Source: a virus | Virus record (IMG/VR): IMGVR_UViG_3300030060_005855 | Location: 1-22,513 of that record | Strand: one strand, 5' to 3' | Length of the DNA stretch: 22,513 bases | In this document: positions 1,551-20,611 of the stretch, piece after piece | Numbering within the stretch: position 1 is the stretch's first letter | Layout: the number at the start of each line of letters is the position of its first letter | The notes under the pieces: model-generated | Databases searched by the model: none | Told to the model about the DNA's origin: nothing | Seen by the model: the letters and a program-made list of their open reading frames with translations, nothing else | Program-made: the position numbers and the translations under genes

Positions 1551-1570
1551 TTTGTAAAAATTTTTTTAAG

Positions 1571-2914
1571 TTATTGATTAATTTTAATGTTCGCTAGTTT
1601 TTGCATTCTAGTTACCATATCATTCGATTCGTTAAGAACTGGTTTCTTTGGAGCTGTAGATGTTCCTGCAGCTTTAGAAGCCATTCCTAATCCCTCTCTG
1701 ATTGATTTTTTAGGAGTTGTTTTTTTACCTTTTGAGATAACAAACGTGTCCTTAATTGTTTCGTAAATTAACTTAGCTTCTTTAATGTTTTCTGCATTGT
1801 CTAAAGTTTCAACTACACGTAGTTTTTGTGCTTCAGTCAAATTATTAGCTTTAAAGATTCTGTTAACGTACAACAATTTAGAATTTAATAGATTAACTTC
1901 GTTAAGTTCACTAGTAACTGCTTCAAGAGCTGCTTTAGTTTCCTCAAGTTCTTGACCCATAGTTTCTTCTTGCATTCTTTTGGCATCAGCTGCTGCTTTA
2001 CCTATTGATTGTAATTTTTCTAGGGCCTTAGCTACTCTTGGATATTTTTTCTTGAAATCTGGATCATCAGCGGCCATTTCTATTTTTGTTAAACCACCTG
2101 CTGCTGCAATTAAACCTGTAACTCCTGCTGCTACTGTGAGAGGGTCTACTTCATTAATTGCTTCTGATTCTTCCATATATGATTCTTTCATATCCTCATC
2201 AGCTTCGTCTTTCTTTTCATCTAAATTGTTAATTTCTTCAAGAAGAGAATCTAAATCAAACTCTTGGTCTTCCGCTATTCTATCAGCTGTATATCCTGCG
2301 TAATTTGCATCTTCAGCTTTATAGATTGGGCGACCCATTTCATCTAATTCTTCTTTCTTCTTACCTTCTTTCATGTCTTCGTCAGCTTCGTCTTTGCCTT
2401 CTTTTTTCATGTCTTCGTCAGCATCTTTGCCTTCTTTCATGTCTTCATCAGCGTCTTTCATTTTGCCTTCTTTCATGTCTTCATCAGCATCTTTACCTTC
2501 TTTCATGTCTTCGTCAGCTTCGTCTTTGCCTTCTTTTTTCATGTCTTTGTCTTCGTCTTTCCCTTCTTCTAATTCTAGTTCTGCAAGAATTTCTTCCAAA
2601 TCAATTTCCTCATCTAGGTTAGATTCTTTCATGTCCTCATCAGCGTCCTCATCATATGCCATTTCTTTCATATCTTCGTCTGCTTCATCTTCATCGTACA
2701 TCATCTCATCCATTTTATCTTTTTCATCTTCCATGTATGCCTCGTCCATGTCTTCGTCATACTCTTCGTTTAGATCTTCAGATAATTTGGCTGACAACAT
2801 AGATTGAAGTTTCGGTGTAAAAGCTTCTTCTAGTGCGGCCTTTGCATTTGCAAGAGCAACTTCACGAACAGCTTTAGCGTCAGCGATAGCCTCTTTTAAA
2901 ATGTCTTTTGCCAT
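1571..2914 (-). CDS. 22: Prohead core/scaffold protein, T4 gp22-like
   Basis: Internal scaffold of the prohead, expected to be degraded by the gp21 protease during maturation. Its place between the protease and gp23 matches T4 order. Residues 1-50 are a helical Ala/Lys/Glu-rich head. Residues 50-245 are extremely acidic, with at least eight copies of [DE]ADEDMKE. Residues 320-395 form a helical segment (NLLNSKLLYVNRIFKANNLT and following) that I recognise from T4-like gp22 proteins, and the tail is MQKLANIKINQ. An unusual hydrophobic stretch (TVAAGVTGLIAAAGGL, 260-275) lies between the acidic and helical parts. At 447 residues it is much longer than T4 gp22 (about 270), mostly because of the acidic region. 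No Shine-Dalgarno is present; an A-rich tract precedes the ATG. Function is certain by position and moderately certain by sequence. Confidence 0.86.
   Translation of the reverse strand: MAKDILKEAIADAKAVREVALANAKAALEEAFTPKLQSMLSAKLSEDLNEEYDEDMDEAYMEDEKDKMDEMMYDEDEADEDMKEMAYDEDADEDMKESNLDEEIDLEEILAELELEEGKDEDKDMKKEGKDEADEDMKEGKDADEDMKEGKMKDADEDMKEGKDADEDMKKEGKDEADEDMKEGKKKEELDEMGRPIYKAEDANYAGYTADRIAEDQEFDLDSLLEEINNLDEKKDEADEDMKESYMEESEAINEVDPLTVAAGVTGLIAAAGGLTKIEMAADDPDFKKKYPRVAKALEKLQSIGKAAADAKRMQEETMGQELEETKAALEAVTSELNEVNLLNSKLLYVNRIFKANNLTEAQKLRVVETLDNAENIKEAKLIYETIKDTFVISKGKKTTPKKSIREGLGMASKAAGTSTAPKKPVLNESNDMVTRMQKLANIKINQ
2354..2569 (-). repeat. Tandem 30-36 bp repeats inside the scaffold gene
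   Basis: The plus strand repeats variants of CTTTCATGTCTTCATCAGC, most densely between 2365 and 2550. In the protein this is [DE]ADEDMKE(G/KEG)K at residues 133-184, with further copies near residues 79, 91 and 237. Units alternate 30, 33 and 36 bases and stay in frame, so copy-number change would lengthen or shorten the acidic arm without breaking the gene. It is coding and not a CRISPR, because there are no unique spacers. Confidence 0.85.
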
Positions 2915-2965
2915 TTTTTTTTAGTTTTTTCTCTTTCGAGTCTCGTTAATAAATTGTACGGGAAA

Positions 2966-3043
2966 TAAGGTTATTGGGAACCTTAATAGGGTTTATACTA
3001 ATCAGGGACGGCTTATTAGGAAGTCCGTATGTTCTAAACATAC
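2966..3043 (-). promoter_or_regulatory. Leader of scaffold gene with three hairpins
   Basis: The gap between the terminator at 3066-3090 and the scaffold start holds three inverted repeats. Read on the minus strand they are GTATGTT-TAG-AACATAC (3043-3027), ACGG-A-CTT-CCTAAT-AAG-CCGT (3028-3008, one bulged base) and TAAGGTT-CCCAAT-AACCTTA (2985-2966). The last two both have 7-bp stems and a CCYAAT hexaloop. They would sit in the 5' untranslated RNA of the scaffold/capsid transcript. Regulatory function is inference. No clear promoter could be assigned; AT-rich TTTTTATATATGTATG at about 3037-3052 (minus strand) is the best candidate. Confidence 0.5.
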
Positions 3044-3065
3044 ATATATAAAAAGAAGGGAAACC

Positions 3066-3090
3066 AAAAAAGGCGCCATAAGGCGCCTTT
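3066..3090 (-). terminator. Intrinsic terminator after membrane-protein gene
   Basis: On the minus strand, AAAGGCGCC-TTAT-GGCGCC followed by TTTTTT then GG. The GC-rich core is 6 bp, extended to 9 bp by A-T pairs that use part of the T-tract, with a 4-base loop. It lies about 20 bases past the stop of the 75-residue membrane protein gene and separates it from the scaffold/capsid transcript. Confidence 0.88.
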
Positions 3091-3111
3091 CCTGAGTTAT
3101 TTAATTAAAAA

Positions 3112-3339
3112 TTACTTTTTGTCCGTAAAGAATGAAGCTACAAGAATTAATACTACTAATCCTACGAAACCACCTTCTCCAAATCCATTTACTAATGAAG
3201 TTAGATTAGCGATTACATCCATTCCATAAACTGAACTACCTGTTAAAACGTACCAAAGGATAGTTACAGGAATAAAAGCCATAAATAGCTTACCTAAACC
3301 ACCTAAAAATCCGCTAACTAATGAAAATACTTTTTCCAT
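3112..3339 (-). CDS. Small membrane protein, two predicted transmembrane segments
   Basis: A 75-residue hydrophobic protein. Segment one is about residues 17-34 (LFMAFIPVTILWYVLTG) and segment two about 57-71 (GFVGLVVLILVASFF), with a Gly-rich stretch between and a charged TDKK end. There is no cleavable signal peptide. I do not recognise a family. It shares a transcript with the outer-membrane protein upstream (25-base gap) and is followed at once by a terminator, so the two form a small unit inserted between protease and scaffold genes. Size and topology would fit a holin-like or inner-membrane partner protein, but a more holin-like protein is present at 11949-12341. The AT-rich context before the ATG lacks a Shine-Dalgarno. 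Confidence 0.75.
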   Translation of the reverse strand: MEKVFSLVSGFLGGLGKLFMAFIPVTILWYVLTGSSVYGMDVIANLTSLVNGFGEGGFVGLVVLILVASFFTDKK

Positions 3340-3364
3340 GATTGTTGATTTTTAAAGTTAATAA

Positions 3365-3775
3365 TTAAAATTTAAGACCTACACCTAATTGTAAATTAGT
3401 TGTCTTAGCCGTTGCGTCATAAACCACTTTTGGATCTACAAATACGCCTTTGTGAAACGTAAACATTTTACCGACACCATAACTTAAGTTATCAGTGTTT
3501 AAACCTGTAGTTGAAACATACGCAAAGTATCCTTTCCAGAAGTATCTTGCGTGTAAATCAACAGCCATATCAGCAGTAGAGTCAGCTTGTGAAACATTCA
3601 TACCTACCATTAGGTCTTCTGTTAAACCATATCCTACTGTTGGGCTTACGGACCACTCAGTCCATGCTTTGTTAGTGATGTCACCAGTACCAACATACCA
3701 GTCACCTTTTTCCTGTGCGTTTACTCCAGCAACTGTAAGCAGTCCTAAAGCTAAACTTAAAATCAATTTTTTCAT
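3365..3775 (-). CDS. Secreted outer-membrane beta-barrel-like protein
   Basis: A 136-residue protein with a textbook signal peptide: MKKLILSLALGLLTVAGVNA, with signal peptidase I cleavage expected after A20 before QEKG. The mature ~116 residues alternate polar and hydrophobic residues in strand-like blocks (WSVSPTVGYGLTEDLMVGMNV, DLHARYFWKGYFAYVSTTGL, TNLQLGVGLKF) and end in Phe, the classic C-terminal signal read by the BAM machinery. This resembles small OmpA/OmpW-type barrels of Bacteroidota; the NAQ cleavage context is typical of that phylum. 116 residues is short for an eight-strand barrel, so it may have fewer strands or oligomerise. It lies inside the head operon but is not an expected head protein. 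Blocking the phage receptor, helping exit, or altering the host surface are possible roles (inference). Confidence 0.72.
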   Translation of the reverse strand: MKKLILSLALGLLTVAGVNAQEKGDWYVGTGDITNKAWTEWSVSPTVGYGLTEDLMVGMNVSQADSTADMAVDLHARYFWKGYFAYVSTTGLNTDNLSYGVGKMFTFHKGVFVDPKVVYDATAKTTNLQLGVGLKF

Positions 3776-3919
3776 AATTTTTGTTTTAGTTAATATTCGG
3801 GTTAATTGAACGAAAGGAAGTAGGAAAAACTCCCTTTGTGTTATGATATATTTTTAGTCTCTCATAATATCTTGAGCATTATTGTAACCTTTATTGTTTG
3901 TGATACATATAACAAAATT

Positions 3920-3977
3920 TTGGCTCAGCCAAGTTTTTTATGGGAAATTTTACATTAATGAACATTTAATTGTTCAT
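3920..3977 (-). promoter_or_regulatory. Two inverted repeats in leader of outer-membrane protein gene
   Basis: The 206-base gap between the protease stop (3982) and the next start (3775) has no convincing ORF. It contains ATGAACA-TTTAAT-TGTTCAT (3958-3977, perfect 7-bp stem, 6-base loop) directly after the protease stop, and TTGGC-TCA-GCCAA (3920-3932). Neither is followed by a good T-tract on the minus strand; the second is followed by TTTTTT on the plus strand, where no gene needs termination. They may end or process the upstream transcript, or be leader structures. A promoter for the outer-membrane protein gene probably lies in this gap, but I see no consensus match. Confidence 0.4.
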
Positions 3978-3981
3978 GACT

Positions 3982-4608
3982 TTAACACTCACACATACCT
4001 GTATTGTCACAAATAATGTCGCGGATTATGTTATTTACGTTTGTATATTTATATTCTGATACTGAACTGGCTATGCCTTCTTGTAATTCTTGGATTGCTC
4101 TTCCAGCTGGTTTCATAAATGCACCGTGTGTTGAAGGTGTTGATACAAAGTCAAAACATAATAATTCAAAGTCATCTTGTACTTCTACAGTGCCATTGCC
4201 ACTTTCCTGAACAGAACCCATTCCACGAGAACTAATACCCACAGTAATTCCATTTCTGAATAATTCTTTAAGTATATTACCTGCTGGAGTAGATAATATT
4301 TCAACTTCGCCATATACGTCATCGCCAACCATTTTTACTTTAATAACATTATGTGATACATTTTGTAGATTAATTACAGAAGATTCTGGGTGATCTAACT
4401 CGCCTAATGCTCTTCTTTCTCTTACAGGACCATCAACATATTTTCTAATTTCTCTTTCTAAAATTTCTTTAGGATAAACTCTACCATTTTGGTTTTTAGC
4501 TTCTGCTCTCTGTATTACACCTTTAACTACTAAAGATCTATTTTCTTTAATAGAAGTTTCCACTAATTGTTTATCTACATTAAATGGTCTATATTCTGTT
4601 AGTAACAT
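3982..4608 (-). CDS. 21: Prohead maturation protease, T4 gp21-like
   Basis: Serine protease of the herpesvirus/T4 assemblin type that digests the prohead core and trims gp23 before DNA packaging. Catalytic His is in GELDHP (H73) and catalytic Ser in VGISSRGMGSV (S126 or S127); the later FDFVSTPST segment (about 152-160) corresponds to the usual third conserved block. GRVYPKEILEREI near residue 42 is a common N-terminal motif of this family. At 208 residues it is close to T4 gp21 (212). The C-terminus ends CDNTGMCEC, an unusual Cys-rich tail. It starts 2 bases after the preceding small gene, so translation is probably coupled. It lies upstream of gp22/gp23 as in T4, but separated from them by the outer-membrane and membrane protein pair. 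Confidence 0.93.
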   Translation of the reverse strand: MLLTEYRPFNVDKQLVETSIKENRSLVVKGVIQRAEAKNQNGRVYPKEILEREIRKYVDGPVRERRALGELDHPESSVINLQNVSHNVIKVKMVGDDVYGEVEILSTPAGNILKELFRNGITVGISSRGMGSVQESGNGTVEVQDDFELLCFDFVSTPSTHGAFMKPAGRAIQELQEGIASSVSEYKYTNVNNIIRDIICDNTGMCEC

Positions 4609-4610
4609 AA

Positions 4611-4877
4611 TTAATCGTCTTTTCGTTTTTTCTTAAATGCATAGGGTGTGGCATATCCTTCACCTGCCCCTGCTTGAAATGAAGCACCTGTACCTGTTGT
4701 ACTAGTTTCATCTAAATCTTCTTCTACTTTATATAATATTTTATGACCATCTATTTCGATTTTTCCATCTTTATGTAATTTTTCCATATCAGACTTAGAA
4801 AGACTAAGAGTAGAACCCTCACCTTCTTTTAAACGTTGTTTAGATTGCCAATCGTGTATGTTAAATTTTTTACTCAT
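4611..4877 (-). CDS. Small head-region protein with possible protease-cleavage tag (gp67/gp68 position)
   Basis: An 88-residue charged protein. Residues 21-50 contain LSLSKSDMEKLHKDGKIEID, which looks like a small folded alpha/beta unit. Residues 52-70 read EEDLDETSTTGTGASFQAG, followed by GYATPYAFKKKRKDD. The LDE|TSTTGTGAS part closely resembles the likely propeptide junction of this phage's gp23 (VNE|ATTTGTGTS), so it may be a substrate of gp21 (inference). Position between portal and protease matches the small core proteins gp67/gp68 of T4, but sequence homology to those is not evident to me. It overlaps the upstream gene by 8 bases and ends 2 bases before the protease gene. Confidence 0.72.
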   Translation of the reverse strand: MSKKFNIHDWQSKQRLKEGEGSTLSLSKSDMEKLHKDGKIEIDGHKILYKVEEDLDETSTTGTGASFQAGAGEGYATPYAFKKKRKDD

Positions 4878-5205
4878 AATTTTTTCTAGCGTGTGTTCTA
4901 AATCTATTAAATAAATCTTTTAATTCCTCGGATAAATTATATAATACTATGTCATCGGGATTATCTTCTGATAATTTTTTAAAATCAATTGTTTCTGCTT
5001 CTAAATCTTCTACCATTCTTTTTATAGAACGTTTATATACTACTTTAGATCTTATTGCTCCTGTTTCGGGGTCTGCAGGTTCATCTACAAAATAAAAATC
5101 TTTTTCTTTACTTTTACCTTTATTTCCTCTAGCAGGATCTCTATCTTTTTTTATTTCACTAAAAGCAGATTCTTTTATATTATATATGTCAATAAGATTA
5201 ACCAT
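4870..5205 (-). CDS. Small head-region protein of unknown function
   Basis: A 111-residue, highly charged protein. The N-terminal half is polar with DRDPARGNKGKSKEKDFYFV, and the C-terminal half is probably helical (SIKRMVEDLEAETIDFKKL, LSEELKDLFNRFRTHARKN). I recognise no catalytic motif and no membrane segment. It overlaps both neighbours by 8 bases (281-residue gene upstream, 88-residue gene downstream), indicating translational coupling in the portal-to-protease block. Size and position suggest a prohead core or portal-associated protein comparable in place to T4 gp67/gp68; this is inference from gene order only. Confidence 0.68.
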   Translation of the reverse strand: MVNLIDIYNIKESAFSEIKKDRDPARGNKGKSKEKDFYFVDEPADPETGAIRSKVVYKRSIKRMVEDLEAETIDFKKLSEDNPDDIVLYNLSEELKDLFNRFRTHARKNYE

Positions 5206-6043
5206 GTATAGCTTTTAGCTCATTTACTAATTCATAATAATTAAGTAAGTTAATAACACTATCATCACGTACAGATGAGTTTTTACTTAAAGGTTTAATC
5301 ATTAATTTTGCTTCATTTAATTTAACAGCTATTGCTTTATCCTCAACTTTTTTAGAGTATCTAGTTAAAAATTGTTTAACTGCTTTTACTTCCTGGTTCA
5401 TATAAGACTTAAGAGCCGGACTATTACTTACATTATTAACATATTCTTTTAATAATGTTTTTTGATTTTCTTCTAAACTACTATATTTGTTATTAAATTT
5501 TTCAAGTAAAACTTTATAAGTAAGTAATCTTGTATCTTTATCTTGTTTATTATAATTTTCTAAAACAACATCTTTTTTAGATTTGCTTTGTTTTTTATTT
5601 GTAATGTGTTCTAAAAGGGTTACTTTAGAATTAACTATTGATAAAGCTGTAGCCTCTTTATTTTCTAATAAATTAAAAATAGAGGCCATTATTTTATAAT
5701 CTGTGATTTTTGCTTTAAAAAAATCATTCACATTATATGTGTCTTTAATTTCTTTAATTAAATTATATTTCTCTCTTCTTAACTGGCTTTTATTAAGTTT
5801 TTTATGGGCATCCAATAAAGTTTCAATTAACATAGTTGCCTGGCTATCTTTATTATATTTTTGGGTAGCTAAAGTATGATATATTTTGTACTCCTTTAAT
5901 AGTTCTGTTTTAGAACTAAAATGTTTTTTTAAAAAGGATAAAGATTTTGACTGATTACCTGTAATGGTGTCAGAAGTTAATTGTCTGGTTAAAAGCTCAA
6001 ATAAAATCCCAGTATTTTTGTACTTAGAATGTTTTACTTTCAT
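5198..6043 (-). CDS. Helical protein between portal and protease, unknown function
   Basis: A 281-residue, strongly basic, mostly helical protein rich in Lys, Leu and Asn. The start MKVKHSKYKNTGILFELLTRQL is distinctive and I have an impression of it from other marine T4-like phages, without a known function. There is no membrane segment, signal peptide or recognised catalytic motif. It is the first gene after the portal (39-base AT-rich gap) and overlaps the next gene by 8 bases. Candidate roles are prohead core or portal-binding assembly factor (inference). Codon use is very AT-rich: 5461-5520 has 10 G/C in 60 bases. Confidence 0.75.
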   Translation of the reverse strand: MKVKHSKYKNTGILFELLTRQLTSDTITGNQSKSLSFLKKHFSSKTELLKEYKIYHTLATQKYNKDSQATMLIETLLDAHKKLNKSQLRREKYNLIKEIKDTYNVNDFFKAKITDYKIMASIFNLLENKEATALSIVNSKVTLLEHITNKKQSKSKKDVVLENYNKQDKDTRLLTYKVLLEKFNNKYSSLEENQKTLLKEYVNNVSNSPALKSYMNQEVKAVKQFLTRYSKKVEDKAIAVKLNEAKLMIKPLSKNSSVRDDSVINLLNYYELVNELKAIHG

Positions 6044-9550: not shown

Positions 9551-10087
9551 TTATACATATAAATCTATTGTTGATTTAATTTGTTTTATACGTTCTTCAG
9601 TAGTTCCTGAAATTGTAACTACTTTACCAGGCATTAATCTATGCATTCCTAATATAGAAGATATTTTTTCATGAATAGCTAATCTGTAGTCTTTATCTGT
9701 TTCTCTAACCCCATTATCTTCAATGGGAATAGAAAGATCATCTATATGGAATATAATATCATATTCTTTTATAAGATGCCATAAAACCCCACTTATATGT
9801 TGTTTTTCAGCTTTACTCATTGATGTAGATAATTCACTAAAAGCCATAACATCAATAACCGTTCTATCTGTTATTATATTTTCTTGCATTAATTCAGCTG
9901 CTCTTTCAGAAGCAAAAACTAATTGTCCCTTTAATGTACTATCTGTGTTTAAAGGTATTCCTAAATTCATTAGATGTTTAGAACGCTCTGTTCTAAAATG
10001 GTAATCCTTAAATTCAGGTAATTTTTTTAATGCATTTACTAGTGTAGTTTTTCCTACACTCATTGTTCCACAAAATCCTATTCTCAT
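9551..10087 (-). CDS. P-loop nucleotide kinase-like ATPase (AAA_28/NadR-like)
   Basis: A 178-residue single-domain P-loop protein. Walker A is GTMSVGKTT (7-15) at the very N-terminus; IITDRTVIDVMAF (71-83) matches the DR-containing block of small kinases of the NadR/Ttd14-like group; DIIFHIDDLSIPIEDNGVR (about 109-127) is the strand followed by the lid-like loop typical of this group. It probably phosphorylates a small molecule such as a nucleoside, nucleotide or nicotinamide riboside, but the substrate cannot be read from sequence. It sits just upstream of the terminase gene (8-base gap) and 3 bases after the preceding small gene. It could also be a regulatory ATPase. Confidence 0.75.
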   Translation of the reverse strand: MRIGFCGTMSVGKTTLVNALKKLPEFKDYHFRTERSKHLMNLGIPLNTDSTLKGQLVFASERAAELMQENIITDRTVIDVMAFSELSTSMSKAEKQHISGVLWHLIKEYDIIFHIDDLSIPIEDNGVRETDKDYRLAIHEKISSILGMHRLMPGKVVTISGTTEERIKQIKSTIDLYV

Positions 10088-10399: not shown

Positions 10400-11728
10400 T
10401 TAAAAAATTGAGTGTTCATGATAATCAGGATATTCTTCTTTTACTTTTAATAACGCTTCAGCAACATATGTACCTTGAGCTCCTGATACTGTTATACCTC
10501 TTGCTGATAATGCATCACCTACAAAATATATGTCAGGGAACCTAGTAAGACTTAAATCTTTATAATTAACTAAAGGTTCAGGTGATAAGTATTTTACTTC
10601 AGGCATATAAATACCCCAATCTTTCCCTAATGTAGGAAATACTGTTTCCATATCTTCAATAAATTCATGAATATATGAAGCATAATCTCCAATAGCTTCC
10701 CATAAAGGATCCATACTATTTACAACATGTGTTTTTACATAATCACCTTCTGATGTTTTTGAGGGTACTCTGTGTGATGGTGAGTAAAACATTCCTACAC
10801 CTTCATGTTGTAATTTTTCTACTGCTGCTCTTGACCAGTCAAATGGTTTATCTATACCTCTAATTTCCATTAAAATACCAAAATTAGTCATATCATTTCT
10901 GTACGATGGGTCTTTTTTAGCATGACCATTATAACTTATATCCCCATAAGTGTGTTCAGCAGCTACATAAGCAGCATTATTATTAGTACAAAATGATCTT
11001 AATGATACACCTTTATCATCATATTTTCTATATAATTTAAAATCATAAGACACATCAATTAATTTTTGAAAGTGTTTTTGTGGTGCTTCAAAACGTACTC
11101 CAATTTGTACTGATTTAGGTTCTGTAGGTAAACTATACTTTTCTGCTAATTGTTTACCAAAATCAATTCCTGATTTACCTACTCCAAAAATAAGTTTATG
11201 ATAGGAATGGTGTTTATCTTTATTACAAAATACTAACTTTTTATAAAAATTAATATCAGTAACCTTAGTTTCCCAATGGAATTCAACACCATTATCTACT
11301 AAATAGTTGTACCAATTTTTACCTATTTCATGTAAGTAATCTGTACCTACATGCCATACTGGGAATAATCTTAAGCCAAAATAGGGTTTGATAAAGTCAG
11401 GTTCTGCCACTGGGTTAGAACATTGTACTTCTTCTGGTTTAGGGTGGAATCTTTTAAAATTAGTAATTACTTGATCCATTAACTCCATTGCCTTTTCGTC
11501 TCCACAGTATTTAGACAACTGACCACCTATTGAAGTGTGGTAAGTTAATTTACCATCAGACCAACCACCTGCACCTAACATACCTGTCATTACTTCTTCA
11601 GGTAATCTATCATATGGATTTTTACCCATATCAATGATAGTAATTTTTCCCTTAAAATTATTGTCTACTAATTTTGTTGCTGCATTAATACCCGCAACCC
11701 CCGCTCCTACAATTACTACTTTTGTCAT
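10400..11728 (-). CDS. FAD-dependent dehydrogenase (COG2509-like)
   Basis: A 442-residue flavoprotein. The N-terminal Rossmann motif VVIVGAGVAGINAA (4-17) binds FAD; GAGGWSDGKLTYHTSIGG (52-69) matches the GGAGxxSDGKL...GG block characteristic of COG2509 dehydrogenases; the C-terminal IYFVGDALSARGITVSGAQG (400-419) is the usual second FAD contact. Substrate is unknown even for cellular relatives. It is somewhat shorter than cellular COG2509 proteins (about 500 residues). It is the first gene after the terminator at 11756-11790, with only 27 bases between T-tract and ATG, so its promoter must overlap the terminator region or it depends on read-through. As a redox enzyme in a late gene block it is an auxiliary metabolic gene candidate. 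Confidence 0.84.
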   Translation of the reverse strand: MTKVVIVGAGVAGINAATKLVDNNFKGKITIIDMGKNPYDRLPEEVMTGMLGAGGWSDGKLTYHTSIGGQLSKYCGDEKAMELMDQVITNFKRFHPKPEEVQCSNPVAEPDFIKPYFGLRLFPVWHVGTDYLHEIGKNWYNYLVDNGVEFHWETKVTDINFYKKLVFCNKDKHHSYHKLIFGVGKSGIDFGKQLAEKYSLPTEPKSVQIGVRFEAPQKHFQKLIDVSYDFKLYRKYDDKGVSLRSFCTNNNAAYVAAEHTYGDISYNGHAKKDPSYRNDMTNFGILMEIRGIDKPFDWSRAAVEKLQHEGVGMFYSPSHRVPSKTSEGDYVKTHVVNSMDPLWEAIGDYASYIHEFIEDMETVFPTLGKDWGIYMPEVKYLSPEPLVNYKDLSLTRFPDIYFVGDALSARGITVSGAQGTYVAEALLKVKEEYPDYHEHSIF

Positions 11729-12354: not shown

Positions 12355-12732
12355 TTATTCATATTTAAAATTATCTTCAAAGTCTCTAAGTAATAAATTG
12401 CCTTTTAAATAAGCTTCCATTTCCATTTTTCTCATATGATCATCATCTTGTGCATATTTTGGGTTTGAGGCATCCCCCATTTTTAAATCACCCCTTTCAT
12501 TTTGTACGTGATGTATTAATTCATGACAATAAGACCTTAGTATATCTTTGGGATGTCTATTTGTTGTGTAAACTACTATTGTTTGTGTGTCTGGTTGGTA
12601 AAAGGCAGTTCTACCAAAAAGCATGTCTGCATTTTCCTCATCTTTACGTAAGATAAGTTTAGGCGCTTGTTGAATATCGTATTTTTCTTTAGCGTCTTGA
12701 TATAAATCCTTAAATGCTTGTTTAAAATCCAT
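12355..12732 (-). CDS. HExxH zinc metallopeptidase-like protein
   Basis: A 125-residue protein with SYCHELIHHVQN (67-78), giving H70-E71-x-x-H74, followed by KMEMEAYLKGN where E104 or E106 could be the third zinc ligand, as in gluzincin-type peptidases. The preceding QTIVVYTTNRHPKDILRS block resembles the strand and helix before the active site of minimal metallopeptidases. Substrate is unknown: virion protein processing, host protein cleavage or peptidoglycan peptide cleavage are all possible, the last because the next gene is holin-like (inference). The ATG shares one base with the TAA of the upstream gene (TAATG), so translation is coupled. Confidence 0.78.
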   Translation of the reverse strand: MDFKQAFKDLYQDAKEKYDIQQAPKLILRKDEENADMLFGRTAFYQPDTQTIVVYTTNRHPKDILRSYCHELIHHVQNERGDLKMGDASNPKYAQDDDHMRKMEMEAYLKGNLLLRDFEDNFKYE

Positions 12733-13187
12733 TATGCTTCTGGTTCTTCTGCTGGTTCTTCAGGTTCTGGTTCTGTGGCTGCTCCTCCTCCAGCATCTGT
12801 TTCTCCACCTTCATCTCCTGTTGTTTCTCCTGTATCCTCATCTCCTGTGCTGGGGATAGGTTTAGTTAATAGTCTGTTTAGTTCCTTAATTGCTTCAGCA
12901 TTTTCTTCTCTATCCATTAAAAAATAAGATTTGGATCCTATTTTAACTACAATAGATCTTTCTTCAATATATAAATCAAAGTCTTGACCATTATGTAAAA
13001 ATATTTTGTAAGAGGGAGGTATTGTATTTGCTGCTTTTACATTATTAACATATCTAATAAGAGGCCTTAATTTAAGATCATTAACTAGAGAATTTCTAAT
13101 TTCCACAGGTAAGGGATATTTCCTCATACCTAATTCCTCAGATATTTTTTTAACTTCTTTTTTTATATATTCTCTAAGTAGTTTCAT
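12732..13187 (-). CDS. Protein with N-terminal helix and acidic, low-complexity tail, unknown function
   Basis: A 151-residue protein. Residues 1-19 (MKLLREYIKKEVKKISEEL) form a basic amphipathic helix ending in ISE|E, similar to the N-termini of the 533- and 89-residue proteins nearby. Residues 25-108 look like a compact alpha/beta domain (KIFLHNGQDFDLYIEERSIV, KIGSKSYFLMDREE). Residues 110-151 are low complexity, Gly/Glu/Asp/Thr/Pro-rich and strongly acidic (TEPEPEEPAEEPEA at the end). No family is recognised. It ends in a TAATG overlap with the metallopeptidase gene, so they may act together. Being packaged in the head is a possibility raised by the N-terminal helix (inference). Confidence 0.75.
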   Translation of the reverse strand: MKLLREYIKKEVKKISEELGMRKYPLPVEIRNSLVNDLKLRPLIRYVNNVKAANTIPPSYKIFLHNGQDFDLYIEERSIVVKIGSKSYFLMDREENAEAIKELNRLLTKPIPSTGDEDTGETTGDEGGETDAGGGAATEPEPEEPAEEPEA

Positions 13188-13488: not shown

Positions 13489-15090
13489 TTATTTTTTCTT
13501 TTGTTTATTAATTGCTTTTGATACTGCTTTACGTCTATTAGCTAAATATTTATCCGTTTTATCAACATCACCATCATTATCTATATCATCATCTTCTTTT
13601 CCTACAGGATCAAGTTTTTCATTTGTTATTCCCGATGCTAATTGTTTTTCTTCTTCCATTCCATATCCCTCTTCTGGATTATTTACCATTTTAGTAGCTG
13701 AGTTTCTGTATTCTTTTTCACTCATTTCTAGTTCTAATTTCATTTTTTTCAAACCTTCATATTGTTTTCTTGCTTTACCTACGAAAGTTTCTGGAATTTG
13801 TGTTCCTCTTTTAGCATATTCCTGGACAACTTCTTCATCTGTCATCCCTTCATCAAACATTTCAAAGAATTTTTTCATAGCACCTTCCATAAGAGTAGCT
13901 CTTTTTTTATATTTGTCTATATGCTCCATAAGATTATCTTGAGATCTTACCATTTCATAATCTAAGTAATGATAAACAGCAGACATCATACTAGATGCTT
14001 TTGTTAATTTAGCTTGAACCCATGATGGTAATTGTGCTCCATCATCCAGCATCATAGATAACTTATCTACATATGTTTTCATTTTATACATTTGTGATTT
14101 TGCCATTCTACCCTCTCTATCAAAATCCATATCATCTTCCTCTAAAGCTCCTTTTTCACCGTCTGCTTTTTTCTTTCTTAAATTAGCTACTTTTACTTCT
14201 GCGTCTGCTTTCATTTGTGTTGCTTTTTGAACTTCATCCTCAGCTTTTGATATATCGTCCGTGATGTCCTCTCTAATATTATTTTTCATATCGTTTCCGA
14301 ATTTATTCATTGCTAATGCTTGTTTCATTGTAATATTTTTTAAACTTTCTGGAAAAGGTATTCCATATCTTGATTTAAAGAAATTTTTCCAAAATTCTGG
14401 TGTTTGAACTGGATTTTTAGCTCCATTCACCATATCAAATACTTTTTTAATTCTTGGAGCCATTTCTTTTGGAGCCATGTCCATTTTAACTCCTGTTCTA
14501 AATAGTGGTGATTCCATTACTCTTTTTCCTAAGTTACCCTGTTCATCAAACTTATTTAAATCTCTTATATAAGCATCAGTATCAACAATATATTCACCTA
14601 AATCTTCTTCTTTTTCAGTGTCCTTATTTTTTGTAATACTTAATATTGTAAATTTGGGGTTTCTAAAGTCATCATAATTACTATTATAATGTTGTGTTTG
14701 GTAAATAAAATACTCGTCTTCTAAGCCTTTTGTTTCATGATACTGCATATGAACAAAAGTATTATTATAAGCAGATTGTTCAGTCCAGTCAGCGTGTTGT
14801 TTTACTCTAGCTTGAAATGCTTTATTACTTCTGGAAGCCATACCATTAGGAAATAAATCTTCTACTTCCTTTTGTTGGAACATATCGCCTGGTTTTTCTT
14901 TTTTAGGATATCTTCCTGACTGACCATAATCAGTAAATTCTTTTAAGTCTTCATCTTCCATTACGCCTGGTAAACCACTTAAATTTCTTCTTTGACGAGG
15001 ACTAGCTCCATAAGTGTCATGCACACCGTAGAATTTTCTTTTTTCAGCTACGGTTTCTTTAACTAATTTTATGATGTCTCTTTTTTTCAT
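13489..15090 (-). CDS. Large coiled-coil protein with EF-hand/dockerin-like loop
   Basis: A 533-residue hydrophilic protein. N-terminal MKKRDIIKLVKETVAEKR is a basic amphipathic helix ending VAE. Residues about 85-185 look alpha/beta (VHMQYHETKGLEDEYFIYQT). Residues about 270-312 are coiled coil (DISKAEDEVQKATQMKADAE), and 325-470 are helical and Met/Lys/Glu-rich. Near the C-terminus DIDNDGDVDKTD (502-513) fits a calcium-binding EF-hand/dockerin loop (D at 1, 3, 5, 12; G at 6), followed by a basic tail. The loop plus YLANRRKAVSKAI tail is something I have seen in several marine phage proteins of unknown role. Candidate internal or structural protein. It starts one base after the stop of the upstream 89-residue gene (TAAAATG). 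Confidence 0.78.
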   Translation of the reverse strand: MKKRDIIKLVKETVAEKRKFYGVHDTYGASPRQRRNLSGLPGVMEDEDLKEFTDYGQSGRYPKKEKPGDMFQQKEVEDLFPNGMASRSNKAFQARVKQHADWTEQSAYNNTFVHMQYHETKGLEDEYFIYQTQHYNSNYDDFRNPKFTILSITKNKDTEKEEDLGEYIVDTDAYIRDLNKFDEQGNLGKRVMESPLFRTGVKMDMAPKEMAPRIKKVFDMVNGAKNPVQTPEFWKNFFKSRYGIPFPESLKNITMKQALAMNKFGNDMKNNIREDITDDISKAEDEVQKATQMKADAEVKVANLRKKKADGEKGALEEDDMDFDREGRMAKSQMYKMKTYVDKLSMMLDDGAQLPSWVQAKLTKASSMMSAVYHYLDYEMVRSQDNLMEHIDKYKKRATLMEGAMKKFFEMFDEGMTDEEVVQEYAKRGTQIPETFVGKARKQYEGLKKMKLELEMSEKEYRNSATKMVNNPEEGYGMEEEKQLASGITNEKLDPVGKEDDDIDNDGDVDKTDKYLANRRKAVSKAINKQKKK

Positions 15091-15091
15091 T

Positions 15092-15361
15092 TTATTTTAT
15101 TTCAAACATACCACCTCTTGGATCTCTGTTAGGGTAAACTCTATTTGCTGGTTCTTTTCTATAATGACCACCTTCAGCACCTCCATATGGAGCTCCTTTT
15201 TTGGTATAATTTTCTATTTCATCTTCTTCATCAACAAAAGGCCTAGGAGAAGTAATTCTATTACCATCACCCCCTTTACCACCAGGAAAACCGCTAGCTC
15301 CAGTGCCCGTGTATTCTTTTATGGTATTTCTAATCAATTCTCTAAGTTCTTTTTTTGTCAT
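15092..15361 (-). CDS. Small Gly-rich protein with N-terminal helix and TGTGAS tag
   Basis: An 89-residue protein. Residues 1-16 (MTKKELRELIRNTIKE) form an amphipathic helix, followed at once by YTGTGASGFPGGKGG and then a disordered Gly/Pro/charged region (GAPYGGAEGGHYRKEPANRV). The helix plus TGTGAS arrangement resembles the possible gp21 cleavage junction in gp23 and in the 88-residue head protein, so IKE|Y could be a processing site (inference). No catalytic motif. It overlaps the zinc-ribbon gene by 20 bases and its TAA is one base before the next ATG. Confidence 0.7.
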   Translation of the reverse strand: MTKKELRELIRNTIKEYTGTGASGFPGGKGGDGNRITSPRPFVDEEDEIENYTKKGAPYGGAEGGHYRKEPANRVYPNRDPRGGMFEIK

Positions 15362-15934: not shown

Positions 15935-16618
15935 TTAACTTACATCAAAGAAATCATCATGGTCAGCTACGATTCCTTTATTTTTTAATATCATTACTAT
16001 TTTATCTAATGTACCCTCATCATATCTTCTAGGTACTGTTTCTTGAATTCCTAAACTTTGTAACCATTTTGTTGCTTCATCAGCTGATCTAATTTTTTCT
16101 CTCCATTGCACATTTGCTGTAGCAGGTACATCATATAAATAAACTCCGTAAAACATACCTCCTTGTTCAGTGTATGTAAAATTAGCTCCTTTTACTGTAA
16201 AACCATACATTTCTTCTTCATTTAAATATCCTAATTCATTAGCTATTTCTCTTACATTAGTAGTTGTTTTAAGGGTTTTAGCTAAATTAAGTGCCTTTAA
16301 ATATTTTTTATTTTTTTCACTTGGATTTTTCATTTTCTTTATCTTTGAAATAGCTTTATTTATTTTAGATAAAGGAATTTTTTCTCCATCTTTAATTTTT
16401 AATCTTTTTCTAACAGTACCCTGTTTTAGGTTACCACGTTTTTTGCCCTTAGCAGCCATTTTTTCGTAAGTGTCACCCTCTTCCATTTTACCCATCATGT
16501 CTCTAACATAAGCTGCTTTAGGATCATCTGGTAATCTGTCTATCATACCTTTTTGAAGTAAAGCCATATAATATAATTTAGCTTTTTGATCTAATGATAA
16601 GTTTTTTATTCTGTCCAT
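15935..16618 (-). CDS. Basic protein of unknown function, possibly nucleic-acid binding
   Basis: A 227-residue protein in two parts. Residues 1-120 are helical and very basic (AAKGKKRGNLKQGTVRKRLK, SKINKAISKIKKMKNPSEKN), resembling DNA-binding or disordered packing segments. Residues 125-227 look alpha/beta (MYGFTVKGANFTYTEQGGMF, GVYLYDVPATANVQWREKIR) and end DHDDFFDVS. No known catalytic motif was seen. It starts 3 bases after the stop of the 73-residue gene, and 5 bases separate it from the zinc-ribbon gene. Start context is an A-rich AAAAAATAAAAA. Confidence 0.72.
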   Translation of the reverse strand: MDRIKNLSLDQKAKLYYMALLQKGMIDRLPDDPKAAYVRDMMGKMEEGDTYEKMAAKGKKRGNLKQGTVRKRLKIKDGEKIPLSKINKAISKIKKMKNPSEKNKKYLKALNLAKTLKTTTNVREIANELGYLNEEEMYGFTVKGANFTYTEQGGMFYGVYLYDVPATANVQWREKIRSADEATKWLQSLGIQETVPRRYDEGTLDKIVMILKNKGIVADHDDFFDVS

Positions 16619-16863: not shown

Positions 16864-19800
16864 TTAAAAATCTGAAGCTAATCCCCCTAATATAAATTTT
16901 CCAGTTATTTTAAAAGGAACATTAGCTATGCTATTGTCTCTTATTACTACTCCCTCATGATTTTCAACTGATCCCATAGGTGAATCTAATACTTTAAGTA
17001 CTTCATCTCCTAATTTTTCAGTTGCAAGATAGGTTACAAATCCTTGTATTGCTTTTTCTTTATCTTCATATTTTTCAAACAATCCATCAACATTATCTCC
17101 ATTGAGAATTGCAAGATAAACTTGTTTAGAAACAGCACCTACTTTTTTTCTATTTATCGTACTACTATCTTGTTTATATCCTACATTCATAAATATAAAA
17201 TCAGTTTCAGGGATGTTACTTAATGTATTTAACCATTGTCCCAATGATTTTGTTTCTGAATTTTCACCTGCGTTTACTGTATAATTTTTAGAGAGTGCAG
17301 CGTTAAAATTAGGTTTTTTAGTCATTTTTGTAGGTACAGATCCATAAACTTCATATCCTCTTTTTTTAGCAATTGGTTCTAAATTTTTAAGTAAAGAATC
17401 TAAAGCATTTTTATCATAAGATATTTCTGATGATATTCTTTTAGTTAACATTTTTCGTTTACCCTGTACTTCTTTGCTTTCTATTTTATTTAAACCATGA
17501 ATTGCTATAAAATTAGAACCATAATCTTGCACGTTAGTTTTTCCACTAACATATTCCATATTAAAAAGTATGTTTGGATTATCATATGCTCCTAATTTTT
17601 TAAGATCATTTTCTAATTCAGGTAAAGCTTCATTAAACATATCTAATACTTCTCCCCCCACTTTTACCATTCCGTGACCGTCTCCAAATCTACTTAATAA
17701 ATCATCTTTTGTAATACCTTTTATATCAAGTTCTTTTTTAGAACCTCTATCCATTACAAACTGTTTTTTACCATCCAAATCTACTAATCTGATAGAACTA
17801 TTTACTCCGTCTATTTTTACTGCTCCTGGATTTTTATCTAAAGAATCTGCTGATTTTTTAAAAACATCTAATAATTGTTTACCATTATTTACATTTGGTA
17901 AATTGAAGGGATGAGCCATATGACCTGCTGCTCCTCCTTCCGTTAATAATATTTCATTTATTATTTCTTTCCACCAATTTTTAGTAAGTGCTGCTTCTTT
18001 TCTCATTCGTTTTGTTTTTCTTTTAGATGCTTCTTTACGTTTTTTAATATATTCAAATCCTGATCTTAATTTAGCTTTCTTTTTAGGATCTTTAGTCCTA
18101 CTTAAAGCTGCTCTTACTCTTTGATGTATTAAATTAATAATTTGTGATTTACGAGCATGAGATTTAGCTTTAAATGATTTTTTACTTAAAGTGTCTACTA
18201 TATCTTGTCTAGTTGAAAATTTTACTTTAACTGTATCTGATGGGTCTTCATCTGTGTATAATCTTCTTCCCGATCCTTTTGGTTTTTTACCCGTTCCTTT
18301 TTTAGGATCACCCTCATTAATGTTTTTTCTTGATTTTCTTACTAAACCCCATTTAGGTAATTTTTTACCTTTATATTCACCATCCATTTGAAAGTTTCTA
18401 ACAGTATATTTTTTACCATCTTTATCTTCTAAGGATAATTTATATCTATTTACTCCTTCTCTACTATTTTTAATTACTTTAAGTTGTATTGATTTTTCTA
18501 ATTTTTTACCCCCTAAAGGAAAACCCTTTGGGGCTCTTAAAACATCGCCTGGAAGTATTTGTCCTTTGTAATTTGATAAGTCTATTCCTATTTCTTCTAA
18601 ATAACCTCTTTTTTTGGCTTGTTTAGGACTATTTGTAAAAGTATCACTTGCTTGATATCTTACTTTTTGTACTTGATCTGCTTTATATGGAGGATACATT
18701 CCTTCTTTTTTCGCTAATTTAGTTGCAGTAGCTAATTTTACTGATTTCCAATCTTTACCATAACGTTTTTTAAATTCTTTATCTGGTAAATCTTGAGCTA
18801 TTCTTTCTCTATCTTTAAGTTCTCCTTTTGTAAGCTTTCTTTCTAAATCTAATTGAGGGTTTGAAGTTTGAAAATCTTTTTTTCTCATTACTGTTTTAGC
18901 AATTGCTTTATTAGCTTGATTTACAAAAGGTATATTAAGATTTGTTCTATTATCTGTTGCTACTACTTCTTTATATGTTTTTAAAAATTCAATAAATGCT
19001 TTTTTATTTTTAGATAAACGTTTAAAAAACCCAATCAATTCAGCACTTGAAATTTCTTTATCATTACGAGGATCATTTAATCTATCAAAAAAGTGATTAG
19101 TAAATTCTATATCAATGGGATCCAATTTATTATCTGCATAATTTTCTACGGAATCTAAATCTGCAGATGACATTTCTTCATAGTATTTTCTTGTAAGAGT
19201 ACCCTTTACATAATCAGGTACTTTATAACCTCCACCACCATAGTTGTTTCCCCTCATTTTAGACATATCCTTTTTTAAACGTTTCATGTTTTTAGCATGT
19301 TTAGCTTTTTCTTGTTTAGTCATCATACCCATCATCATTTCACTAACTGCTGCTGGGTCTTCTACTTTTAATATTATGTCAGGATATTTATCTTTTAAAC
19401 TTGCTACTGCTACTCTATTTTCTTCTGAGTCATCTATAAAATAAATTGTTTGGTAACCTTTTTTAATATGGTTTTCTATCCAATTAGCTTTATCTATACC
19501 TCTTACTTTACCATCTACCTGCATTCCTAAAGGAACTACATAAGCATCTAGTCCTAAATCTTTTTTTAGATATCTTGTTACAGGATGTCCTATAGAACGA
19601 GCAGTTAGTATAGTTGTTTTTATATCAGGTCTACTAAGTGAATTTTTTAATTTACTTACAACTTTACTGTTTACAATAGCATTATTTATTTGTTTTTCAA
19701 ATTCTCCAAAATCATAAGTAATATCTAAATGACCTAATCTTGTTTCTAATTCTTTACTTTTTTCTGGAAATTCAGTAGATGCTATATCTAATTCTTGAAA

Positions 19801-20580
19801 AAAATCAGGATCGTTAGGACTAGTAATAACTGTTCTTATATTTGCTTTTACCTTAGCTATTGTATCATCAAAATCATAAACATGTAAAACTTTACCTTTT
19901 TCAAATTGAGCATCTTCATACATTCCTCCGAAACCCATTCCCCCACCAGTATATAATCCTCCTCTTTTATATCTGTAAGCTCTAGGAATATCATCTTTAG
20001 GACCAGGGACACTACTCCTCATATAATCTAAAACTTTATCTTCTGGATTATATAAATCTTCATCTAAACCTGTTACTGTATCCCAAGCCTGTTCTTTTTG
20101 TTCGTTTGATAAATGATCAGGTAAATAATATTGGAAATTTGCTTTATCATTATCTTTAATAAAACCTCTCATTTGTGTACCTGATACGCCTCCCGCTTGT
20201 GGAGGTACTAATTTAGTCTCAAATTTAATTCCTCTAGGTTCAGCAAACTTAGGTATATTAGCAAAACGTTTATCACTAATATCTTTTTCACCCATTCCCA
20301 AAAATACTGTGGACCCTTCAGGGGCATCTTGTTCTACAAAATCATAAACATCTCTTACTGGAGAAACTCCTGCTGGTCTTACTTCTAATCCTGAGTCATT
20401 TTGTATGTAAATTTTCCATAATTTAAGGGACATTTCTTGTGTAATGCCATCTCTTTCTTTTGGGCCTACAAAGATTATAGTTTTATCCGCACCTGTGTTT
20501 GCAGATAACCATTTAGCCATATTATAATGACCGGCATGAGGGGGTTTGAATCCTCCTGGTAAAAGTGCGATTTTTGACAT
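16864..20580 (-). CDS. 1238-residue fusion: HxGH nucleotidyltransferase + HAD phosphatase + ligase-like domain
   Basis: Largest gene in the window. Residues 1-150: HIGH-superfamily nucleotidyltransferase, with GGFKPPHAGHYNMAKWL (HxGH at 15-18) and VSGTQMRG (132-139, the usual [IS]SxTxxR block). Residues 228-410: HAD-type phosphatase, with YDFDDT (235-240), TILTAR (323-328) and YFIDDSEEN (380-388). Residues 490-550: HFFDRLNDPRNDKEISSAEL to NLNIPF, perhaps a RelE-like fold. Residues 740-865: very basic, probably disordered. Residues 870-890: WWKEIINEILLTEGGAAGHMAH. Residues 920-1238: ligase/nucleotidyltransferase-like, with KIDGVN (922-927, motif I), MEYVSG (1008-1013), EGVVIRD (1209-1215) and FKITGKF (1223-1229, motif V). 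The C-terminal part resembles phage family DUF6267 from memory. The N-terminal domain could make a CDP-, NMN- or FAD-type product, and the last domain could join nucleic-acid ends, but neither is proven. A basic linker and an LLTE|GG site make proteolytic maturation possible. Confidence 0.82.
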   Translation of the reverse strand: MSKIALLPGGFKPPHAGHYNMAKWLSANTGADKTIIFVGPKERDGITQEMSLKLWKIYIQNDSGLEVRPAGVSPVRDVYDFVEQDAPEGSTVFLGMGEKDISDKRFANIPKFAEPRGIKFETKLVPPQAGGVSGTQMRGFIKDNDKANFQYYLPDHLSNEQKEQAWDTVTGLDEDLYNPEDKVLDYMRSSVPGPKDDIPRAYRYKRGGLYTGGGMGFGGMYEDAQFEKGKVLHVYDFDDTIAKVKANIRTVITSPNDPDFFQELDIASTEFPEKSKELETRLGHLDITYDFGEFEKQINNAIVNSKVVSKLKNSLSRPDIKTTILTARSIGHPVTRYLKKDLGLDAYVVPLGMQVDGKVRGIDKANWIENHIKKGYQTIYFIDDSEENRVAVASLKDKYPDIILKVEDPAAVSEMMMGMMTKQEKAKHAKNMKRLKKDMSKMRGNNYGGGGYKVPDYVKGTLTRKYYEEMSSADLDSVENYADNKLDPIDIEFTNHFFDRLNDPRNDKEISSAELIGFFKRLSKNKKAFIEFLKTYKEVVATDNRTNLNIPFVNQANKAIAKTVMRKKDFQTSNPQLDLERKLTKGELKDRERIAQDLPDKEFKKRYGKDWKSVKLATATKLAKKEGMYPPYKADQVQKVRYQASDTFTNSPKQAKKRGYLEEIGIDLSNYKGQILPGDVLRAPKGFPLGGKKLEKSIQLKVIKNSREGVNRYKLSLEDKDGKKYTVRNFQMDGEYKGKKLPKWGLVRKSRKNINEGDPKKGTGKKPKGSGRRLYTDEDPSDTVKVKFSTRQDIVDTLSKKSFKAKSHARKSQIINLIHQRVRAALSRTKDPKKKAKLRSGFEYIKKRKEASKRKTKRMRKEAALTKNWWKEIINEILLTEGGAAGHMAHPFNLPNVNNGKQLLDVFKKSADSLDKNPGAVKIDGVNSSIRLVDLDGKKQFVMDRGSKKELDIKGITKDDLLSRFGDGHGMVKVGGEVLDMFNEALPELENDLKKLGAYDNPNILFNMEYVSGKTNVQDYGSNFIAIHGLNKIESKEVQGKRKMLTKRISSEISYDKNALDSLLKNLEPIAKKRGYEVYGSVPTKMTKKPNFNAALSKNYTVNAGENSETKSLGQWLNTLSNIPETDFIFMNVGYKQDSSTINRKKVGAVSKQVYLAILNGDNVDGLFEKYEDKEKAIQGFVTYLATEKLGDEVLKVLDSPMGSVENHEGVVIRDNSIANVPFKITGKFILGGLASDF

Positions 20581-20611
20581 TAATTGTACAATTTATTATA
20601 AATATGACCCC

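Follow-up and report, generated by a model that had tools for sequence, protein, structure and literature searches.

The analyzed window is a 22,513-nucleotide stretch of viral DNA (positions 1 to 22,513 of the IMG/VR record IMGVR_UViG_3300030060_005855). Positions 16864-20580 on its minus strand hold one open reading frame (ORF) that starts with ATG, is free of internal stop codons, and encodes a protein of 1238 amino acids, herein referred to as the polyprotein. Its gene is also a single open frame in the parent virus record (28,606 bases) and was kept as one frame in dozens of independent contigs. An assembly artefact was therefore dropped as an explanation, and the single gene claimed in a preliminary description of this DNA is real. 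The order of genes on the minus strand is primase, polyprotein gene, several small ORFs, terminase, portal, gp21, scaffold, and gp23. The locus is thus a T4-like head cluster with a primase directly upstream. The polyprotein is probably a chain of cargo proteins that is packaged into the head of a T4-like aquatic phage and diced by the prohead protease gp21 at hydrophobic-x-Glu junctions. The following modules were distinguished, from the N-terminus to the C-terminus (CTS, capsid-targeting sequence; pLDDT, predicted local distance difference test of the AlphaFold2 models):

20059..20580, minus strand: nucleotidyltransferase of the NMNAT/NadD/CoaD fold, residues 1-174; HxGH at 15-18, SGTQMR at 133-138; ends in GLDE-174.
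19915..20058, minus strand: disordered spacer cassette (DLYNPEDK...GGMYE-222), residues 175-222; pLDDT ~30-45.
19339..19914, minus strand: predicted HAD-superfamily phosphatase cassette, residues 223-414; pLDDT ~90; ends in VSE-414.
19177..19338, minus strand: basic helical spacer cassette (MMMGMMTKQEKAKH...LTRKYYE-468), residues 415-468; net charge +10.
18781..19176, minus strand: HFFDR cassette, weakly RegB-like, residues 469-600; HFFDR at 496-500; 3' border approximate.
18313..18780, minus strand: basic module, residues 601-756; net charge +23; pLDDT partly low; ends in INE-756.
17995..18312, minus strand: strongly basic module, residues 757-862; 34% Lys plus Arg, net charge +25; confident helices at 785-862.
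17938..17994, minus strand: CTS-like peptide AALTKNWWKEIINEILLTE, residues 863-881, before the ligase-type domain, with a candidate cut after its last residue; pLDDT <50.
16867..17937, minus strand: predicted RNA/DNA-ligase-type covalent nucleotidyltransferase domain, residues 882-1238; K922-x-D-G, E1009, E1209-G, K1224.

The AlphaFold2 model of residues 1-862 is a multi-domain one (pLDDT 73, predicted template modeling score (pTM) 0.39), confident at residues 1-170, 228-412, and 785-862, with disordered stretches in between. Residues 1-170 have a pLDDT >90, and the modeled fold supports the assignment of the N-terminal domain as a NadD/CoaD-type nucleotidyltransferase. The best structural matches were NadD (VIA Z 15.6, 2.2 Å over 150 residues) and, tied with it, CoaD (Z 15.2); these structures lie within 1 Z of each other, so the score favors no particular substrate. 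The Foldseek E-value was 1.8e-6, and the match to PF01467 (17.5 bits) was under the cut-off of 21. In the HxGH motif, H18 is invariant and H15 is 90% conserved (72 instances), and R138 of the SGTxxR motif is invariant where aligned. When the 862-residue model was compared by VIA, matches of this domain took up the list, which is therefore little informative on the HAD and other modules.

At the opposite end, the C-terminal 374 residues were modeled with a pLDDT of 87.4 and a pTM of 0.84, the opening 21 residues being disordered. A Foldseek search of this model against the PDB gave nothing significant (best E-value 0.16). On VIA re-alignment, T4 RNA ligase 1 came out on top (Z 8.6, 8.3, and 8.2), and nearly all the rows after it were RNA and DNA ligases. 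The best of these alignments (3.8 Å over 175 residues) is modest, and a Z near 8 by itself could reflect a common arrangement. Across 43 ligase-like domains, no variation was seen at K922, D924, G925, and E1009. Because the rows are uniformly ligases and the KxDG, Glu, EG, and Lys motifs are invariant, residues 882-1238 are best read as a ligase-type nucleotidyltransferase, for which strand joining is predicted. The domain has the same fold and the same order of motifs I, III, IV, and V as T4 RNA ligase 1 and other covalent nucleotidyltransferases; it differs from them in that its profile had no match among PDB sequences. No match to Pfam DUF6267 (PF19782) was found for the polyprotein C-terminus at an E-value of 0.1, and a plain DUF6267 label was dropped for this reason. 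An hhalign comparison with DUF6267 gave a probability of 84-88%, limited to the first 100-130 columns.

Between these ends, residues 223-414 are assigned to the HAD phosphatases by the invariant DxDxT, T/S (TAR), K, and DD motifs, and the corresponding activity is predicted. Up to 27 instances all share the residues D236, D238, T240, T326, R328, K364, D383, D384, and N388. Members of this family match PF00702 and DUF2608 weakly. A Foldseek match to T4 Pnkp (E-value 2.1e-4) came from a multi-domain alignment with a root-mean-square deviation of 20.6, and a search of PDB sequences with the HAD profile gave no match. The HFFDR cassette matches PF10715 (T4 RegB) with E-values of 0.001-0.003 and 18-19 bits, and its model is low-confidence and mostly helical. 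Flavobacterium immuto, Melnitz, and phiM12 phages are among the 14 relatives in which this cassette was found. The module at residues 757-862 probably binds nucleic acid or the DNA core, as its composition suggests. A profile search with the E module returned chance chains only, and a sequence search of the PDB with the whole protein gave nothing useful.

All motifs named in the preliminary description are present: HAGH (15-18), DFDDT (236-240), IDDS (382-385), HFFDR (496-500), KIDG (922-925), EGVVIRD (1209-1215), and FKITGKF (1223-1229). They are not chance occurrences, because their key residues are invariant or 90% conserved among the relatives. Its domain calls, an NMNAT/NadD-like fold, HAD motifs, and a ligase-type C-terminus, agree with the AlphaFold2, VIA, Foldseek, and motif conservation results. 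The likeness to DUF6267 that it raised for the C-terminus held only in part: the window protein lacks the Pfam match, and a genuine DUF6267 (E ~1e-105) occupies the C-terminal position in some relatives.

A scan of IMG/VR yielded 79 related loci, in which modules were mapped by hidden Markov models. Some 60 related contigs have the nucleotidyltransferase at the start and a ligase-like domain, either of the window type or a true DUF6267, at or near the end. Between the two ends lie from zero to several modules, which can be dropped, duplicated, or reordered. Thus, the architecture is variable, with constant ends and a middle made of exchangeable cassettes. Minimal forms (L040, L051, and L072; 628-645 amino acids) have little beyond the two end domains. 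The spacer at residues 175-222 is kept, moved, or missing in relatives, and the one at residues 415-468 travels as one unit. Modules 601-756 and 757-862 stand in swapped order in L077-L083, L096, L102, and L104, and a DUF192 module is inserted in L094. In freshwater relatives, another nucleotidyltransferase subtype is fused to the window-type ligase domain. In L157-L159 the order is reversed, with the ligase-type domain followed by the nucleotidyltransferase. For cyanophages, a DUF6267-nucleotidyltransferase fusion is indicated by the layout of the phrog_455 profile alone; DUF6267 is a gene of its own in the records of S-SM1, Syn9, and MED4-213.

Two further observations concern the cassettes. 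The L033 polyprotein (1431-5660) includes an entire Fe/Mn superoxide dismutase together with a cupredoxin of the plastocyanin/azurin type and, at its C-terminus, a GNAT domain, an unusual cargo for a phage head; as such cassettes occur, the cargo is mixed. In the window, a separate gene (15935-16618, minus strand, 227 amino acids) bears the GTVRKRLKIKDGEKIP module, which many relatives carry as a cassette inside the polyprotein.

The polyprotein could instead be a multifunctional end-repair or nucleotide-metabolism enzyme that stays uncut and acts inside the infected cell, much as a Pnkp/RNA-ligase fusion would. Conservation of the catalytic residues in the nucleotidyltransferase, HAD, and ligase domains agrees with this, as do the fusion of nucleotidyltransferase and ligase-like domains both ways (NMNAT-lig1, lig1-NMNAT, NMNAT-DUF6267, and apparently DUF6267-NMNAT) and the presence of HAD in L115, L118, and L129 as a gene of its own close by. 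We consider such an enzyme unlikely, as HAD is missing or moved in many relatives, the superoxide dismutase and cupredoxin cassettes fit no repair pathway, and the linkers are disordered and have protease-type sites at their junctions.

These junctions are part of the evidence for a cleaved chain of head cargo. A junction was defined as a point between two blocks that adjoin in one protein but are far apart or reordered in a relative, and only distinct contexts were counted. Hydrophobic-x-Glu was found within 10 residues of 32 of the 38 distinct junctions, compared with 13.9±2.9 for random positions (maximum of 2000 draws, 24). In a rerun with another ordering, the motif was found at 30 of 37 junctions (expected 13.8±2.9), and within 3 residues at 21 of 37 (expected 5.4±2.0). 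The controls in this rerun, hydrophobic-x-Asp (16 vs. 16.5 expected) and polar-x-Glu (23 vs. 22.9), were not enriched at the junctions. Hydrophobic-x-Arg was mildly raised (15 vs. 8.5±2.5), and shifted windows in the first test gave counts of 8 to 22, so that neighboring positions are not entirely motif-free. Taking every end of an ungapped alignment as a breakpoint gave the motif at 212 of 500 sites (121.6 expected); this test was replaced, being noisy because small indels score as breakpoints. In the polyprotein, the predicted sites are GLDE-174, MYE-222, VSE-414, YYE-468, INE-756, and LLTE-881, and the predicted junctions sit in low-confidence linkers of the AlphaFold2 models. Of the 63 distinct contexts of the site before the ligase-type domain, 62 have Glu; all have L, I, or V at P3, and P2 is widely variable. 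At this domain border, L120 (3585-6056) has a homing-endonuclease-like insertion at a GGAA stretch beside the predicted cleavage site, followed by LLLCGG, the sole Glu-less context at this site.

Judged by sequence, hydrophobic-x-Glu corresponds to the motif recognized by gp21, the prohead protease of T4, a homolog of which is encoded in the window:

3982..4608, minus strand: gp21-type prohead protease (PF03420 Peptidase_S77, E-value 7.6e-28), the proposed cutter.

The window gp23 has QLVNE/A in its N-terminal region (a slash before A or GG marks a candidate cut), which we take to be the place where T4 gp23 is cut. The T4 gp21 protease cleaves after Glu, and cuts of Alt at ITE-6 and LTE-619 were detected by mass spectrometry (PMC5694885).

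The same motif could be a relic of cassette joining, left by old gene starts (such as MNE or MKE, MSE or MYE) or recombination sites, with the intact chain being packaged and injected. The N4 virion RNA polymerase is indeed packaged unprocessed (PMC5512222), and several junctions begin with Met (MYE, MSE, MNE, and MKE). Many sites are without Met, however (GLDE, INE, VSE, and LLTE), and the window does encode a prohead protease. Additionally, the Glu is fixed while the preceding residue is free, which indicates selection on a protein site. Packaging without cleavage is therefore given a low probability.

For a chain that is both packaged and cleaved, a targeting signal may lie directly before the ligase-type domain. 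The peptide found there, NWWKEIINEILLTE/GG, is patterned like a CTS and ends exactly at E881. FSKNWW..E precedes both ligase types, the window type and DUF6267. In the reversed proteins of L157-L159, the ligase-type domain opens the protein N-terminally with MKTFKQYYNTILNE/GG. The peptide MKTFKQYYNTILNE is close to MKTYQEFIAE, which we take to be the T4 CTS. The first ten residues of the CTS suffice for packaging, as described in a review (PMC9026906).

Enzymes similar to the N-terminal domain were previously found in cyanophage virions. The cytidylyltransferase T4-GC190 was found in S-SM1 virions by Sullivan et al. using mass spectrometry (PMC3037559). This protein (ADO97160) starts with MKKFSAFLNE/AERS, and its gene adjoins a DUF6267 gene and lies six genes from the primase gp61. 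The S-SM1 and Syn9 nucleotidyltransferases both start with MKKFSAFL[NS]E/AE. NMNAT-like proteins were also detected in virions of S-SCSM1 (PMC9602691) and S-CREM2 (PMC10665884). Because these relatives are distant, the detections support packaging of the polyprotein by analogy and deep homology.

The position of the polyprotein gene directly after the primase also fits a non-packaged early or middle protein, whose place beside the head genes, outside the capsid operon, would be incidental. The cyanophage enzyme that was detected in virions and lies near gp61 matches the order of primase, polyprotein gene, and head genes, and an early or middle protein would leave the CTS-like peptide and the protease-type junctions unexplained, making this reading very improbable. 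The sequence upstream of the gene contains one conserved feature:

20596..20606, minus strand: element CATATTTATAA, ~20-30 nucleotides before the polyprotein start codon, with conserved ATAT[TG]TAT.

The ATAT[TG]TAT element precedes the start codon in essentially all of 53 distinct relatives and may be a late promoter. Across the whole window, neither the count of ATAT[TG]TAT-type elements nor the occurrence of TATAAATA was above chance.

In the proposed mechanism, the polyprotein would be made as one 140-kDa precursor, and the helix-forming CTS-like peptide FSKNWWKEIINEILLTE would help to draw it into the prohead core. The gp21-type protease would then cut after the Glu of the six predicted sites and free the NadD-like nucleotidyltransferase, the HAD phosphatase, the HFFDR protein, the basic DNA-core proteins, and the ligase. 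The released parts would stay in the head, enter the host with the DNA, and act at once. The middle would serve as a cassette bay, refitted by related phages at the protease sites.

Several points weigh against this mechanism. Packaging, cleavage, and injection in this family are inferred from the CTS-like and protease-type features and from distant relatives. The cyanophage enzymes detected in virions are distant from the window domain (BLASTP E-value 0.064; hhalign probability 75%), and the authors of the S-CREM2 study caution that co-purification is possible. The CTS-like segment of the window protein is internal (863-881), the protein beginning with the nucleotidyltransferase, whereas the known CTSs of T4 are N-terminal. 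Hydrophobic-x-Glu is short and is also found inside folded domains; therefore, not all such sites can be cuttable. The likeness of HAD to T4 Pnkp is weak, and the RegB match of the HFFDR cassette is under the curated cut-off of 27 bits. The preliminary description had left a repair or nucleotide-metabolism enzyme and a packaged polyprotein, possibly cleaved near E881, as two readings. The protease-type junctions, the CTS-like peptide ending at E881, and the cyanophage virion detections strongly favor the packaged polyprotein, with which a repair function is compatible.

Substrates and biological roles of the released enzymes can only be guessed. The HAD phosphatase and the ligase would most plausibly heal and seal nucleic-acid ends, and the nucleotidyltransferase would carry out adenylate or nicotinamide adenine dinucleotide (NAD) chemistry. 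The constant pair of nucleotidyltransferase and ligase-type domain suggests linked adenylate chemistry; once the HAD phosphatase is added, the simplest functional guess is a kit for healing and sealing ends. Pnkp-like end repair, raised in the preliminary description, is a live guess of this kind, because HAD is weakly similar to T4 Pnkp and the best match of the C-terminus is T4 RNA ligase 1.

Polyvalent proteins, CTS-bearing head cargo, and virion NMNATs are already known. Polyvalent proteins (Iyer et al., 2017; PMC5512222) likewise join unrelated enzymatic domains into large chains of varied architecture, and are believed to reach the host together with the DNA. The polyprotein family has at least two unrelated effector domains per chain and varied architectures, and its delivery with the DNA is likewise inferred. 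For polyvalent proteins, processing by built-in zincin-like metallopeptidases or a C-terminal assemblin-like peptidase was proposed, whereas the window junctions fit a separate gp21. A Pfam search of the polyprotein recognized no peptidase domain, although profile searches can miss one. The text of PMC5512222 mentions neither cytidylyltransferase nor nicotinamide mononucleotide (NMN) nor superoxide. With the T4 internal head proteins and Alt, the window protein shares the [LI]xE cleavage logic, the CTS-like peptide, basic proteins, and enzymatic cargo. The T4 cargo is encoded by single-domain genes with an N-terminal CTS, whereas the window protein has many cargoes per chain and an internal CTS-like element. 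The cyanophage virion cytidylyltransferases and NMNATs (T4-GC190, phrog_395, and phrog_455) are alike in the nucleotidyltransferase fold, the adjacent DUF6267, and the nearby gp61, and combine an N-terminal CTS with virion detection. They differ in being separate genes without a cassette bay and are similar to the window domain at the profile level only. No description of a T4-like polyprotein with exchangeable cassettes bounded by prohead-protease-type sites was found in open-licence papers, which is weak evidence of absence because the search covered such papers only.

Terminase identity places Flavobacterium immuto phages (59%) and Microcystis phage Mel-JY01 (52%) nearest among isolates; in the former, the modules are in part encoded as individual genes. 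Three other minus-strand ORFs (12732-13187, 13489-15090, and 15092-15361) begin with the CTS-like peptides MKLLREYIKKEV, MKKRDIIKLVKETVAE, and MTKKELRELIRNTIKE, respectively, and may encode further head cargo. The C-terminus of the second has DIDNDGDVDKTDKYLANRR, a dockerin/EF-hand-like loop common to several phage protein families, including the cytidyltransferase family phrog_764. ORFs 9551-10087 and 10400-11728 (minus strand) comprise an AAA_28 P-loop protein (E-value 2.3e-12) adjoining a pyridine-nucleotide oxidoreductase. The NadR kinase domain belongs to the AAA_28 family, and the pair is possibly a second NAD-related element. ORF 12355-12732 (minus strand) encodes a small protein with a HELIHH zincin-type motif and weak metallopeptidase matches, including MPTase-PolyVal (E-value 0.075). 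The scaffold-like ORF 1571-2914 (minus strand) is very acidic (net charge -62), with repeated DEADEDMKEGK units.

For T4-like aquatic phages in general, it is possible, although we hold this only tentatively, that a cassette bay between constant ends is swapped at prohead-protease sites, and that the constant pair is perhaps an NAD/adenylate and RNA-sealing kit against early host defense. With cassettes swapped at protease sites, any inserted domain would be cut free in the prohead and injected. This suggests a rule by which T4-like phages may gain or swap DNA-delivered proteins, namely insertion of a domain between two prohead-protease sites. If this is true, junction motifs would predict head cargo from sequence, and DUF6267, the ligase-type domain, and the basic modules of marine phages would be candidate injected enzymes. 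The packaged polyprotein would also offer an answer to the recurrence of nucleotidyltransferases in cyanophage virions.

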